Source: an uncultured Clostridia bacterium | Lineage (GTDB): Bacteria; Bacillota; Clostridia; Christensenellales; Borkfalkiaceae | Reading direction: 5' to 3' | NCBI GenBank assembly: GCA_944368155.1 | Contig: CALVWW010000005.1 | Location: forward strand, 1 to 64,000 | Length of the DNA stretch: 64,000 nucleotides | Shown here: piece by piece, positions 50,814 to 64,000 of the stretch | How the letters are laid out: the number at the start of each line of letters is the position of its first letter | How positions within the stretch are numbered: the first letter of the stretch is position 1 | Made by a program: the position numbers and the translations under genes | The notes under the pieces: model-generated | Databases searched by the model: none | What the model was told of the DNA's origin: nothing | What the model saw: the letters and a program-made list of their open reading frames with translations, nothing else

Positions 50814-53729
50814 ATGCGAATTAAACTGATTTTAATTTTGTTGCTGTCCGTCGTGATTTGCGGGCTGGTTGCCTTTCTGGCTTCATGTGAAGAGGGTGAT
50901 TCGGCTGACACAGGTGCGACGGATATTGTTTTGCCGGGAACGGGAGAGCGTCCGTCAGAGCCTGTATCAGGCAACGATGACGACGATGAAGTTCTTGATG
51001 ACGGCGAAGTCCCGGACAACGGCGATGACCCCGAGCCGCCTGAAGACGACAACCCGTCCGACGATGAACCCTCGGAAGATATTCCTCCCGAAGACGGTTC
51101 GTCTGAAGACAAACACGAACATACTCTTGTATATGTGCCGGAAACTGCCGCCGCTTGCGAAAACGGCGGCAATATTGCGTATTGGCAATGCACAGACTGC
51201 AGAAAATTGTTTTCAGACAATTCTGCCTTAGAAGAACTTACCGCACAAGAAGTATTAACTGAGGCTGCCGGACACGAATATGTGAGCAGCACCGTGTCCG
51301 CTGACTGCACACGCCCGGGGTACACGCTCTTTACCTGCGCGGTGTGCGGGAATTCGTATATCGACGAGAGTTCATACACTCCGTCATACGGCCATGATAT
51401 GGGCGATTGGACGGTAGTGACCGAAGCCACATGTGAGCGCGAAGGCGAACTTATACGCCGCTGCCTTGTCTGCGACTACATGGAAAGCATTGTTATACCC
51501 GCTGGCGACCATAACTTTATGCCGGCTGTTTCCGAAGCTACCTGTGAGGAGGACGGATATATTCAATATACCTGCGCAGATTGCGGTTACAGTTACATAG
51601 ACGGTCAGATTGTTCCTGCATTTGGACATAATTACGGCGATTGGGAGACTACAACCGAACCTTCCTGTGATGCCGAAGGCGAGCAGTCCCGCAGCTGTGA
51701 GCGCTGCGGCAAAATTGAATATGAAAAAATTTCCCCGCTGGGACATTCATATATAGCAACCATAAAGCCGCCTTCATGTACTGAGGGCGGCTTTACCTTA
51801 TACAAATGCGAAAATTGCAAAGACAGTTATATCAGCGACTATACTGCGCAATCGGAGCATGAATATGCCGCGACTATCGTGCCGGCGACATGTACTTCCG
51901 AAGGGTATACGCTGCTCGTTTGCGCAGGTTGCGGTCATCAGCAAGTGGAGGACGGTTCATATACTCCGAAAGCCGGACACTCGTTCGGCGACTGGCAGAC
52001 GGCAACGCCCGCCGGCTGTACGTCCGGCGGACTGAAGGTGCGTGAGTGTTCGGTATGCGGCGCAAATGAACAACAGGAAGTGCCTGCTTCGGGACATAGT
52101 TATGAATGCGTTGTGCAAGCGCCTTCATGTACGGAGGGAGGATACAACGAATATATCTGTTCAGTATGCAAAGATTCCTATAAGACCGACTTTACAGAAC
52201 AATTGGGGCATGACTATGTTCAAACTATCGTGCCTGCCACCTGTCAGACGGAGGGGTATGCGCTCAATGTGTGCACCCGTTGCAAAGATGAATATATTGT
52301 AGAAAATTCATTAATACCTCCCTCCGGGCACAGTTACGGGGAATGGGAAACGACGCTTGAACCTTCCTGTACCGACAGCGGACTTCAGACGGCAAGGTGC
52401 GATACGTGCGGCGATGAACAATACAGGGAGCTGGCTCCGCTCGGACACAGTTACGGCGGGTGGTATATTGTGGCAGAAGTTTCCTGCACTCAGGACGGAC
52501 TGCGCGAGCGCGTCTGTTCGCATTGCGGCGGTTATGAGCGGGAAACTGTAGTAAGTACAGGGCACAGCTATACGGAAACTGTAGTTGCGCCCGACTGTGA
52601 AAACGGCGGATATACCCTGCACGAGTGTTCGGCCTGCGGGGATGCATATTCCGATAATCCTGTCGAAAGTCTGGGCCACGATTTCGGAGAATGGAAAGTT
52701 TTAACTCCGTCTGCATGTGAGAAAGGCGGAGAGGAAATAAGCTATTGCGGGCGTTGCAATGAGAATACCACGCGAGAAACTTCGCCTGCCGGGCACAGGT
52801 ATGAATCGTATGTGCATGAGCCGACGTGCACGGAGGGCGGCTACACCGAACACCGCTGTCAGGATTGCGGCGCTTGCTTTACCGACGGCGAAACTTCTTC
52901 GCTCGGCCACAATTATGAAGTGAGCGGAACTGTAGAACCTACGGAGTCGGAAAGCGGATATACTGAATATACCTGTACCCGTTGCGGCGACAGTTACAGA
53001 GTCGAACTCGAACCGGTGGAACCTACTCCGACAGAAGGGATAAAGTATGAGTTAAATGACGACGGTTATTATTCCGTAACGGGTATTGAAGCGGGAATAT
53101 GCGTGAATGAACTGATAATTCCAGCTGAGTACGAAGGTATTGCAGTTACAGAGATTTCCGACGGCGCTTTTGCGGGCAACACAGATATAACTGAAGCGCG
53201 GCTCGGCCAGAATATAGTGCGGATAGGCAGCCGCGCTTTTGAAAGCTGCGTTGTTTTAAAAAGCGTCAATATCCCCGCTTCGGTAAAAGAAATCGGCGAA
53301 GAAGCCTTCCGAGCATGCTCATCGCTTGAAAATATTGACTATGAAGCTGTATCTGCAGAAGATTGTGTGGTCGGGATATTTGCAGGCGCGGGAAGCGGGG
53401 GCGAAGGTATAAAAGTAACGTTCGGCGCAGATGTCGAACGCATACCGTCAGGCTTATTCTATTGTCTGATTGCCTCACAGAGCCCGAAAATTACAGCTGT
53501 CGGGTTTGAAGAGGGCGCAGTTCTGCGCGAAATAGGCGACAGTGCGTTTGCGAACTGCGCTGACCTTACCTCGGTGAGCCTGCCTGCCACTGTCGAAGAA
53601 ATCGGTACGGAAGCTTTCTATTGTTGCACATCGCTTGCTTATGTTGCAGTTCCGTCAGCCGCGCATGTCGGCAGCGGAGCTTTCGAAGGGACAGCAATAA
53701 ATTTCGAAATTGACTATTTTATGCTTTAA
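50814..53729 (+). CDS. Large surface lipoprotein: sixteen His/Cys repeats and a BspA-like leucine-rich C-terminus
   Basis: 971 residues. A lipoprotein signal (lipobox LASC, Cys25) is followed by an acidic Asp/Glu/Pro-rich spacer (about 28-100). About sixteen repeats of 36-42 residues cover about 103-730, each of the pattern GH-x(8-14)-C-x3-G-x5-6-C-x2-C. Only the last has lost its first Cys. The C-terminal 240 residues are BspA-type LRR_5 repeats (DGAFAGNTDITEARLG, RAFESCVVLKSVNIP, SAFANCADLTSVSLP, EAFYCCTSLAYVAVP). Such repeats occur on clostridial surface proteins; metal binding is plausible but unproven. AAAGGAG precedes the start. Confidence 0.88.
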   Translation: MRIKLILILLLSVVICGLVAFLASCEEGDSADTGATDIVLPGTGERPSEPVSGNDDDDEVLDDGEVPDNGDDPEPPEDDNPSDDEPSEDIPPEDGSSEDKHEHTLVYVPETAAACENGGNIAYWQCTDCRKLFSDNSALEELTAQEVLTEAAGHEYVSSTVSADCTRPGYTLFTCAVCGNSYIDESSYTPSYGHDMGDWTVVTEATCEREGELIRRCLVCDYMESIVIPAGDHNFMPAVSEATCEEDGYIQYTCADCGYSYIDGQIVPAFGHNYGDWETTTEPSCDAEGEQSRSCERCGKIEYEKISPLGHSYIATIKPPSCTEGGFTLYKCENCKDSYISDYTAQSEHEYAATIVPATCTSEGYTLLVCAGCGHQQVEDGSYTPKAGHSFGDWQTATPAGCTSGGLKVRECSVCGANEQQEVPASGHSYECVVQAPSCTEGGYNEYICSVCKDSYKTDFTEQLGHDYVQTIVPATCQTEGYALNVCTRCKDEYIVENSLIPPSGHSYGEWETTLEPSCTDSGLQTARCDTCGDEQYRELAPLGHSYGGWYIVAEVSCTQDGLRERVCSHCGGYERETVVSTGHSYTETVVAPDCENGGYTLHECSACGDAYSDNPVESLGHDFGEWKVLTPSACEKGGEEISYCGRCNENTTRETSPAGHRYESYVHEPTCTEGGYTEHRCQDCGACFTDGETSSLGHNYEVSGTVEPTESESGYTEYTCTRCGDSYRVELEPVEPTPTEGIKYELNDDGYYSVTGIEAGICVNELIIPAEYEGIAVTEISDGAFAGNTDITEARLGQNIVRIGSRAFESCVVLKSVNIPASVKEIGEEAFRACSSLENIDYEAVSAEDCVVGIFAGAGSGGEGIKVTFGADVERIPSGLFYCLIASQSPKITAVGFEEGAVLREIGDSAFANCADLTSVSLPATVEEIGTEAFYCCTSLAYVAVPSAAHVGSGAFEGTAINFEIDYFML

Positions 53730-54195: not shown

Positions 54196-56130
54196 TTAAC
54201 ATTTAAATTTATTAACCAAATACTCAAACGTAGTACCCGGCACAAGTTGTTTTATTGAAGTAAAATCGTTAACTTTAAGAAGTTCTCTAACACGACTAGC
54301 GCTGATAACTTTGTTGTCAAATTCTTTACGAGGCACAACGATAACTTTTATGCCGTACTTCGGCAGAACGATTTTCATCTGCTCATTGTATTGTCTTGTA
54401 ACATTATCCAGCGGCTCTTCGCGCAAAAAGCGTATATTAATGTCCAAGGCGGGCGCAATATTTCTACCAAAAATTTCAAGGTCAAGCGTGGCATCTATCG
54501 TTTTGTCCTGCAGTTCGGCCTTACCAAAATAATCAGTGAAAGTCAAGGATGAAATAATAAATTTGCCGCTTGGTAAAACAGTAACATTTGGAATATCGGC
54601 AGTACCACTTCGTACAAGTTCAATTCTGTCCTCAAAAGTAAAGAACGACTTATCCTCTTCAACCACAAAAATAAATAGATGCTCTACTCTTGATGCGGCA
54701 TATTCAACAAGGTATCTATGCCCGAGAGTAAACGGGTTGCAGTTCATTACAATCGCGCCTATATTCCTCTTATAAACCAATATTTTATCAAGATATTTTT
54801 TTAACCCTTCGGTATCTTCTTCACGATTTAAACTATAGGCATTATTACCAGACGCTGCATCTGCAAAGGGCGGAACACCAAAAATTTTAGGCCTGCACAG
54901 CTTAATTTCCGAAGTTTGTGGTATATCGTTTAAATAATTATTTTCTTTAAAAAAATTAAATAAATTTTCCGCATAAATTTTAAGACCCGGTTCACTTGGA
55001 TGCCACATATCGTTAAATATTTCCACATTATCACGTGCCGTAACATCTGCATACCTTATGGCGGGAATATTTTTATAATATCGTTGAGCCCACTTCTGAT
55101 TGTATGGGATAACAACAATATCGCCGACATTATAAGCGACTGCGTTTATCATATACCACATGGCATCATGTTGTCCCCAAATAAAACTTCCGTGATTTAC
55201 AACCTTGACTGCCTGTTGCGGAGCATTTATGTTGAACAAATCTTGCAGCCTTGAGGCAAAAGTTGAACTATCCGGAACACCCACTCCGAAAAAACCGCAG
55301 CCGCCAAATATATGAATTGTTCTCTTAAATACAGAAGGCTGTCCGCAAGTGACACGTACGCCTCCCGAAGTATTAACATATTCTGATGAATAATCTTTAA
55401 TTGCAAAAACACCACGGGAATCTATAACTCTATCAGGCACAACATGCATTGAGAGTAATTCCTGTGTACTGTATCTCTGAGAATACATTCCCTCCGGATA
55501 TGGGTCCTCGCCGTTTTTTAATTTTTCTGTCATATTCTCCCGCATAAGTTTGTTGTCAAATAAATATTTTTCCCAAGCTGTTAAATTTTCATAGTCTGGA
55601 GTAAAATTATCTATAAGCACAACATTAACGCCAGGATTAAGTGCAACAAAATTTTTAAGCGGCCTTATTTTGAACACATAGTACACTAATGACCCTATAA
55701 AAGCCTTCCTAAAAACTTCCACGGTTAATTTTTTAATGTTTTGATTCATTACCCAATCAATAACAGATTTGCGGCAATTTAAATCAAAGGCAAAAAACAT
55801 ATCGCCAGGCAAGAAATTAATATTTTTCAATTCATAAAATTTTTCAGTCCACTCATATTCTCCACCGGAAAAAACAAAATTCTCATCAGAACAAAAAATG
55901 ATACTTTCTTTATAATAGAAAAGAAATGCGTTAATCAAATGTATAAAACGACGGCATAACGGTTCGGACGAATAGAAAACAATTCTGCGCGCTCCATAAA
56001 GCTCTTTGAAAATTAACGGTAAAGGAGTGCAATTATTATCTAATTTTGACAGTATCGCTCCAGCTTCTTGTTCGCTATATCTGTCATTTTTATCAATATA
56101 TTCCTCGCACTTATCGCTCATTATTTTCAC
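54196..56130 (-). CDS. Three-part fusion: N-terminal unknown, SGNH-hydrolase-like, CitC-like nucleotidyltransferase
   Basis: 644 residues. Residues 1-260 are not recognised. Residues about 271-395 look like an SGNH/GDSL domain: HIFGGCGFFGVGVPDSS replaces the usual FGDS block, with Cys278 where the nucleophile Ser would be, and DMWHPSEPG supplies Asp374 and His377. Residues about 455-644 match the citrate-lyase ligase (CitC) cytidylyltransferase-like fold: GAIVMNCNPFTLGHRYL with TLGH at 468-471, TRQYNEQMKIVLPKYGI and ISASRVRELL. No citrate lyase genes are near. It is the last gene of an AT-rich glycan cluster. Function is unknown; acyl or nucleotidyl activation of a glycan substituent is a guess. 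Confidence 0.72.
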   Translation of the reverse strand: MKIMSDKCEEYIDKNDRYSEQEAGAILSKLDNNCTPLPLIFKELYGARRIVFYSSEPLCRRFIHLINAFLFYYKESIIFCSDENFVFSGGEYEWTEKFYELKNINFLPGDMFFAFDLNCRKSVIDWVMNQNIKKLTVEVFRKAFIGSLVYYVFKIRPLKNFVALNPGVNVVLIDNFTPDYENLTAWEKYLFDNKLMRENMTEKLKNGEDPYPEGMYSQRYSTQELLSMHVVPDRVIDSRGVFAIKDYSSEYVNTSGGVRVTCGQPSVFKRTIHIFGGCGFFGVGVPDSSTFASRLQDLFNINAPQQAVKVVNHGSFIWGQHDAMWYMINAVAYNVGDIVVIPYNQKWAQRYYKNIPAIRYADVTARDNVEIFNDMWHPSEPGLKIYAENLFNFFKENNYLNDIPQTSEIKLCRPKIFGVPPFADAASGNNAYSLNREEDTEGLKKYLDKILVYKRNIGAIVMNCNPFTLGHRYLVEYAASRVEHLFIFVVEEDKSFFTFEDRIELVRSGTADIPNVTVLPSGKFIISSLTFTDYFGKAELQDKTIDATLDLEIFGRNIAPALDINIRFLREEPLDNVTRQYNEQMKIVLPKYGIKVIVVPRKEFDNKVISASRVRELLKVNDFTSIKQLVPGTTFEYLVNKFKC

Positions 56131-62684: not shown

Positions 62685-64000
62685 TTACCTCCCTAAGCGG
62701 AATTTAACCACAGCCGCCAAAGCCGCTACTGCCGTCATTGCCGCAAAGAAGTTTGCAGCGGCATTTTCAGCTTTCTGCATATCTTCTTTACCGCTTTCAA
62801 CGGCGCCGTTGTAATCTGCAAGCATATTCTCGTACAAACCGAATGTAAGGCCCTCGGCCTCGGCGTCGGCTATCTCGCGTTCGCTGCATTCCGCCAACAG
62901 ATTGTATACAGCGGTAAGTGCTTCGTACTGTTCGTCGAGCGAACCGTTTTCCGCCGTTTCTACTGCTTCTAACGCCTCGGCGAGCCGTTCGTATCTTTCA
63001 GTATATACGGTCTCAAACGCCGCCTCGAAAGTGGTATCTCCGGTAATCTCCAAATCAGGAGTATATTCTGTGCCGCCGCTGAACCAGCCTGCGAAAACAT
63101 AGCTCTTTATAGTGTTGCCGGCGGGTGCATCAGGGTCTGCGGGTGCATTGACAGTTTCGCCCGAAAGTGCCGTTGTAGTGAACACAACCTCGCCGTCCGC
63201 TACGAACGAAACTGTGTAAACCTGTTCTACAAGCTCAAGGTAGAGCCCGAAGTCGAGGCCTTCCGCTACACAGTCTGCTATCTCCTGCTCGCTCATAGCC
63301 TCATATACCGGCTGAATACGGGCGATTGCCGCGCGCTGAGCCGCAGGTGTACGCGCCGCATCAAGAGCGTTGAGCGCTCGCATAATGGTGTTATATTCGG
63401 AAGTATAGACGGTAGTGAACCTTGCAGAGTATGTGCCGTCGGCCGTCACTTCGCCGGGAACAAACTGGGTAGTGCCGCTGAACCAGCCCGCAAACACGTA
63501 ACTCTTGATGCTGTTGCCTGCAGGTGCCGCGGGAGTTGCGGGAGCCGAAACTGTTTCTCCCTCGTAAACTGTATACGAAGCAACGACTGTCCCGCCGTTT
63601 GTAAACGTTACAGTGTAGAGCTTGCCGAGCATCTCTTCATAAAGTTCGAACGACATTCCTTCGGCCTCGGCGTCGGAAATATTTTCCGCTGTGAGTGTTG
63701 CATACAGTTCAGTCATCCGGTCAACAGCCTGGTGCTTTTCTGAAGGAGTCTGCGCCGACTGTAGCGCACCAAGAAGTCCAGCTATATCGTCATACAACTC
63801 GCTGTATACTTTCTGATAGCTTGCTGTATATGTGACGTCCCCGCTTACAGTTGTTTGTTCTGTTAACTGCTCTTCACCGTTAAACCAGCCAAGGAAGGCA
63901 TACGACTCTACCATAGTACTGTCCGCCGCCTTTACAGGTGCTTCCGGTGCCGCTATTGTATTACCTTCGAGCACTTCCTGTTCAGCTACAGTATCGCCTT
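62685..64000 (-). CDS. Surface protein with InlB-type repeats alternating with helical repeats, 5' end outside the window
   Basis: The 3' 438 codons of a longer gene; reading stays open to the window edge. Units of about 130 residues have an InlB/Listeria-Bacteroides repeat (IKSYVFAGWFSG with surrounding strands, ending FxTVY) followed by a helical segment of about 60 residues (EQEIADCVAEGLDFGLYLELVE). Two full units and one partial are visible. The C-terminus (NGAVESGKEDMQKAENAAANFFAAMTAVAALAAVVKFRLGR) is a membrane helix with a basic tail and no LPXTG sorting motif, so anchoring is by the helix. Likely an adhesin or wall-associated protein. Confidence 0.82.
   Translation of the reverse strand, partial: GDTVAEQEVLEGNTIAAPEAPVKAADSTMVESYAFLGWFNGEEQLTEQTTVSGDVTYTASYQKVYSELYDDIAGLLGALQSAQTPSEKHQAVDRMTELYATLTAENISDAEAEGMSFELYEEMLGKLYTVTFTNGGTVVASYTVYEGETVSAPATPAAPAGNSIKSYVFAGWFSGTTQFVPGEVTADGTYSARFTTVYTSEYNTIMRALNALDAARTPAAQRAAIARIQPVYEAMSEQEIADCVAEGLDFGLYLELVEQVYTVSFVADGEVVFTTTALSGETVNAPADPDAPAGNTIKSYVFAGWFSGGTEYTPDLEITGDTTFEAAFETVYTERYERLAEALEAVETAENGSLDEQYEALTAVYNLLAECSEREIADAEAEGLTFGLYENMLADYNGAVESGKEDMQKAENAAANFFAAMTAVAALAAVVKFRLGR

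Follow-up and report, generated by a model that had tools for sequence, protein, structure and literature searches.

The fused gene and its operon

At the locus studied here, within a window of 64,000 nucleotides (the whole stretch of DNA that was analysed), four genes spaced only 2–5 bases apart form an operon on the minus strand. They encode a family 2 glycosyltransferase (GT2) fused to a HAD domain, a LicD-family protein, a lipoprotein of the tyrosine-phosphatase family and, in last position, a protein in which an SGNH-like domain is joined to a CitC-like domain (Table 1). A sequence-only reading of this DNA had already delimited the last gene; both its boundaries and the minus-strand ORF of 644 aa proved correct. 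The start codon is GTG, and codon 4, ATG, could be the true start. The N-terminal region (residues about 1–230) varies across homologues and is ILEI-like in some of them. Secreted proteins are encoded upstream on the same contig. A 971-aa protein, in which repeated CxxC motifs precede BspA-type leucine-rich repeats, adjoins the operon (50814–53729), and a 2163-aa secreted protein with Listeria-Bacteroides repeats (L098:2686-9177, from window position 62685 on) extends beyond the end of the window.

Table 1. Coordinates of the fused gene, its parts, and the other genes of the operon (window positions).
Feature	Position	Strand	Remark
Whole gene, SGNH-like + CitC-like fusion	54196..56130	-	644 aa
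N-terminal region, residues about 1-230	55441..56130	-	without family match; confident model
SGNH-like domain, residues about 266-402	54925..55335	-	VIA-align structural matches
Cys278 codon, nucleophile position	55297..55299	-	64 Cys/17 Ser in 81
Asp374 codon	55009..55011	-	Asp in 64/81
His377 codon	55000..55002	-	His in 81/81
Inter-domain linker, residues 403-456	54763..54924	-	homologues with poly-G/C tracts, none in window gene
CitC-like nucleotidyltransferase domain, residues 457-638	54217..54762	-	PF08218 E 2e-65
Tyrosine-phosphatase-family lipoprotein, 416 aa	56133..57383	-	PF13350 E 1.7e-29
LicD-family phosphotransferase, 532 aa	57389..58987	-	PF04991 E 2.8e-24
Family 2 glycosyltransferase + HAD domain, 1011 aa	58991..62026	-	PF00535 E 5e-39, HAD matches

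Conservation of the domain pair and of position 278

A single scan covering 84,980 species genomes yielded 79 loci, and column counts were taken from an alignment of 81 fused proteins that represent several phyla. The pairing of the two domains is genuine and conserved, and it is common to many gut bacteria; the family extends across Bacillota, Actinomycetota, Spirochaetota, Campylobacterota, Bacteroidota, and Lentisphaerota, and one copy, of the Ser type, occurs in a marine Vibrio. No description of an SGNH domain fused to a citrate lyase ligase was found in a literature search. P0002 (from L141), a CitC-like protein whose N-terminal part carries an FGDS motif, was considered as a possible independent SGNH pairing but discarded, as profiles confirmed no SGNH domain in it. 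The CitC-like gene of that locus adjoins the sulfate activation genes CysC/CysD (L141:1-10307), and elsewhere a CitC-like domain is fused to ATP-sulfurylase (L046:5101-8460); either could point to a link with sulfation.

The block that usually reads FGDS in SGNH proteins is FGGC here (residues 275–278), which places Cys278 where the Ser is normally found, as the sequence-only reading had proposed. Across the 81 fused homologues, this column contains Cys or Ser and no other residue, which rules out that Cys278 arose by chance. His377 is invariant, together with Asp337, Gln296, and Arg259. Asp374, which like His377 had been recognized in the window protein from the outset, is present in 64 of the 81 and replaced in the others by Asn, Glu, Thr, Ala, or Cys. 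On a quick tree built without columns 275–283, the state of position 278 changed at least six times, two of these changes being forced by well-supported branches, which fits with a role as nucleophile. The earlier reading had regarded a conserved Ser among the homologues as speaking against its thioester relay; instead, Cys is in the majority and Ser forms an interchanging minority. The family can therefore do without a thioester, and some of its members would use an oxyester. Cys as the usual nucleophile is without precedent in a review of the SGNH proteins (PMC9487903) and in the literature search, which returned, on catalytic Cys in this superfamily, only an indirect remark about plant thioesterases.

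The CitC-like domain

The resemblance of the C-terminal part to CitC, likewise noticed from the letters of the DNA, was borne out over the whole length of the domain. It matches the Pfam profile Citrate_ly_lig (PF08218) from end to end with 220 bits, the cut-off being 20.9 (E 1.1e-66 in the genome-wide profile search), and the window protein is 43% identical to Escherichia coli CitC across 212 aa. The score for TIGR00124, the CitC equivalog (EC 6.2.1.22), is 212.6 bits and thus below the cut-off of 262.1; that match begins at profile position 114, which means that the GNAT half of CitC is missing. CitC normally uses acetate to acetylate a thiol (PMC10798043). When the fused proteins were compared with 23 GNAT-type CitC-like proteins, the CitC signatures were found to be kept (NPFTxGH, SASxVR, FxGxEP, YN, and others), and the main residue was identical at most positions conserved in either set. 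As most conserved positions are unchanged, it is economical to suppose that a small acid is activated by adenylylation, and the domain probably activates an acid such as acetate with ATP.

Positions 524, 546, 548, and 575 consistently differ from CitC, however, which leaves room for an acid other than acetate. This deviation would suit a protein whose SGNH-like domain transfers another group (lactyl, glyceryl, or an amino acid) delivered by a CitC-like domain of changed specificity, as would the finding that in L019 and L065 this SGNH subfamily is fused to FkbH, a domain of the glyceryl-loading type. We nevertheless consider a non-acetate group unlikely, given that most conserved CitC positions are unaltered. 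The domain further shares its fold with PPAT/CoaD, and nucleotidyltransferases of this fold can alternatively produce NDP-alcohols. The C-terminal domain might accordingly act as a genuine nucleotidyltransferase with a CDP- or ADP-activated alcohol as its product, for example for the LicD protein encoded in the operon, while the SGNH-like domain acts independently, for example in ester trimming. Such an activity is improbable, because the residues retained include those conserved in CitC beyond the general fold, and because LicD is not a leading neighbour family at other loci.

Fold and predicted active site of the SGNH-like domain

The AlphaFold model of the whole protein (mean pLDDT 87, pTM 0.67) leaves the relative placement of the domains unsure; that of residues 1–430 reached a pLDDT of 87 and a pTM of 0.86. 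A structure prediction had been proposed as a check on the sequence-only reading, and it contains a strand (270–274) followed by a helix from residue 278, which is the arrangement of SGNH block I. Foldseek alone returned no significant PDB match for residues 1–430. With VIA-align, the best structural match was CgnD (8a2n; Z 12.1 over 171 residues, covering residues 208–395), and further matches were the GDSL protein 4rw0 (Z 9.1), TesA structures (7.4–8.1), and many esterase/TesA rows between 7 and 8; values below 8 may reflect common arrangements, and nearly all top rows are SGNH proteins aligned over the same residue range. With a profile of the 81 homologues, Cys278 fell on the catalytic Ser of esterase 9otv (in GDS) and of CgnD (in GGS), and Asp374/His377 fell on the Asp/His of both, the individual scores being weak. 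Judged by this fold alignment, it is unlikely that Cys278 lies distant from Asp374/His377.

The domain thus combines the SGNH fold and the Asp-x-x-His of block V (Asp374, His377) with a Cys in place of the block I Ser, and neither the Gly of block II nor the Asn of block III is conserved among the homologues. In the window protein, Ile317 occupies the block II position, and the Asn at 344 could still serve as an oxyanion residue. The block II Gly is also replaced in the SGNH O-acetyltransferases PatB and Streptococcus pneumoniae OatA, of which PatB keeps the block III Asn (PMC12148441).

These features bear on whether the SGNH-like domain is a deacylase, the CitC-like domain recovering the freed acetate in a form of editing or salvage. 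SGNH proteins are mostly esterases, and the closest solved relatives of this domain are hydrolases; yet the oxyanion residues are not conserved, Cys prevails at position 278, and the neighbouring genes point to glycan assembly rather than breakdown, which together make deacylation quite unlikely.

Genomic context

Among the 336 genes flanking homologues were 19 for polysaccharide pyruvyl transferases, 18 for GT2 enzymes, and 12 for epimerases. For comparison, 61 genomes of the window's order contained 17 pyruvyl transferase matches in total, which is a rough yardstick because the background taxa differ from those of the homologues. Fusion partners among the homologues included GT2, pyruvyl transferase, epimerase, FrhB, and ATP-sulfurylase. 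One near relative (L017) adjoins an initial sugar transferase, the copy of the cultured Sporomusa ovata adjoins a flippase, and another near relative (L018) has non-glycan genes on its flanks. In L019, an FkbH acyl-loading domain and the same SGNH subfamily make up one protein, encoded next to the fused SGNH–CitC gene. Such joining of FkbH (HAD-IIIC type) to this SGNH subfamily was seen at L019:3265-6510 and L065:3481-6708; the SGNH domain of the latter has Pro at the nucleophile position.

A role in citrate metabolism was rejected because the genome, 95% complete, lacks CitF. The absence of citrate lyase genes, which the sequence-only reading had stated for the window, extends for CitF to the genome assembly (no match in a profile search of the 95% complete assembly), in which only one strong Citrate_ly_lig domain is encoded.

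Homopolymer tracts in the linker

In 80 intact homologous genes, 12 G/C runs of at least 8 were counted, whereas codon shuffles gave an expectation of 1.85 and, in 300 shuffles, never more than 7. Nine of them fall in the linker, which makes up 5.9% of the length (binomial p 2e-9); the genes concerned are from L060, L019, L055, L029, L025, L044, L049, L061, and L075. Three further genes (L013:2245, L037:8658, and L044:5116), of which one belongs to the window's genus, lose their reading frame exactly at a linker tract, and by eye, one added C would restore the frame in each. Linker tracts of 8–14 are thus present in at least 12 homologous genes, the three frameshifted ones included; the window gene is without one.

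Judging from the sequences, these tracts probably reflect phase variation that uncouples the SGNH and CitC domains, and if they switch the gene on and off, a variable surface antigen would result. Assembly error is possible but less favoured, because the tract position recurs across phyla and in AT-rich genomes. Apparently separate SGNH and CitC genes (L003/L013, L044, and L037) were rejected as natural unlinked pairs, since the DNA shows poly-C linker frameshifts; L065 is a degraded copy. In Selenomonadaceae, poly-C runs of 9–24 were observed where the fused gene ends, at its very 3′ terminus (L042:5291, L026:7436, L030:7514, and L059:7457), where they might switch the C-terminus or link it to the next gene.

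Proposed function

We favour, at a probability of roughly 55%, the reading that the window protein is a cytosolic, acetyl-CoA-independent acyltransferase decorating a surface-glycan precursor. That the transfer half of CitC is exchanged for an SGNH domain with Cys or Ser suggests the sequence acyl-AMP, acyl-enzyme, glycan. By homology to CitC, the C-terminal domain would convert ATP and a small carboxylate, most likely acetate, to the acyl-AMP; Cys278, aided by His377 and Asp374, would receive the acyl group as a thioester (in Ser-type members, as an oxyester) and would then transfer it to the sugar made by the same operon, at a hydroxyl or an amine.

Counting for such an acyltransferase are the CitC residues kept, the restriction of position 278 to Cys or Ser, the invariant His377, the altered oxyanion positions, the glycan neighbours, the lack of CitF, and the FkbH pairing in L019. 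Counting against it are the replacement of Asp374 in 17 of the 81 homologues, the hydrolase CgnD as best structural match, the non-glycan flanks of L018, the unsure placement of the domains in the full-length model, and the NDP-alcohol chemistry possible for the fold. The thioester relay put forward in the sequence-only reading accordingly stands in part: the Cys/Ser-only column, the CitC signatures, the swap of GNAT for SGNH, the glycan context, and the lack of CitF favour a relay, whereas the thioester itself appears dispensable family-wide. A role other than in citrate metabolism, as a glycan acyltransferase, is probable, and the relay is a hypothesis with good support. The more comprehensive picture, in which a soluble glycan acyltransferase is charged directly from free carboxylate and ATP, carries the acyl group on a Cys of its SGNH fold (S-acyl-Cys) that has traded places with Ser in evolution, and is switched on and off in many gut relatives by homopolymers between the two domains, is tentative, the odds being slightly against it in its entirety.

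Gut bacteria live in high acetate, and known bacterial glycan O-acetylation relies on acetyl-CoA. If the acyltransferase reading is true, an enzyme that runs on free acetate and ATP would let gut bacteria modify their surface sugars without acetyl-CoA, and this would be an SGNH family with Cys as its usual nucleophile.

Comparison with known systems

With CitC, the [citrate (pro-3S)-lyase] ligase, the window protein shares the nucleotidyltransferase domain and most conserved residues; it differs in having SGNH in place of the GNAT half, in scoring under the equivalog cut-off, and in belonging to a genome without CitF. At L019 and L065, FkbH acyl-loading domains (TIGR01686) are coupled to the SGNH subfamily found here, but they are HAD-type, unrelated to CitC, and absent from the window protein. 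CgnD, the SGNH hydrolase of the crocagin pathway, resembles it in GGS-xx-FGVG (here GGC-xx-FGVG) and in Asp-x-x-His; in contrast, CgnD has a Ser-His-Asp triad with Ser as nucleophile, is without a CitC domain, and is reported as a slow hydrolase that releases a peptide, not as a transferase (PMC10070186).

In OatA and PatA/PatB, a donor module charges the SGNH domain, and an acyl donor module is likewise coupled here to an SGNH domain that would acylate a cell-surface glycan, with an oxyanion hole altered as judged by sequence comparison. OatA and PatB differ in drawing on acetyl-CoA via a membrane protein, in acting outside the membrane, in their Ser nucleophile, and in the block III Asn they keep. 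The pairing of a membrane AT3/MBOAT donor with an exported SGNH domain that defines their type is not what the window protein has, and no Pfam match to AT3/MBOAT was obtained for it or its three operon neighbours. The charging of the domain would be similar, but the proposed enzyme is a soluble one that would work without acetyl-CoA.
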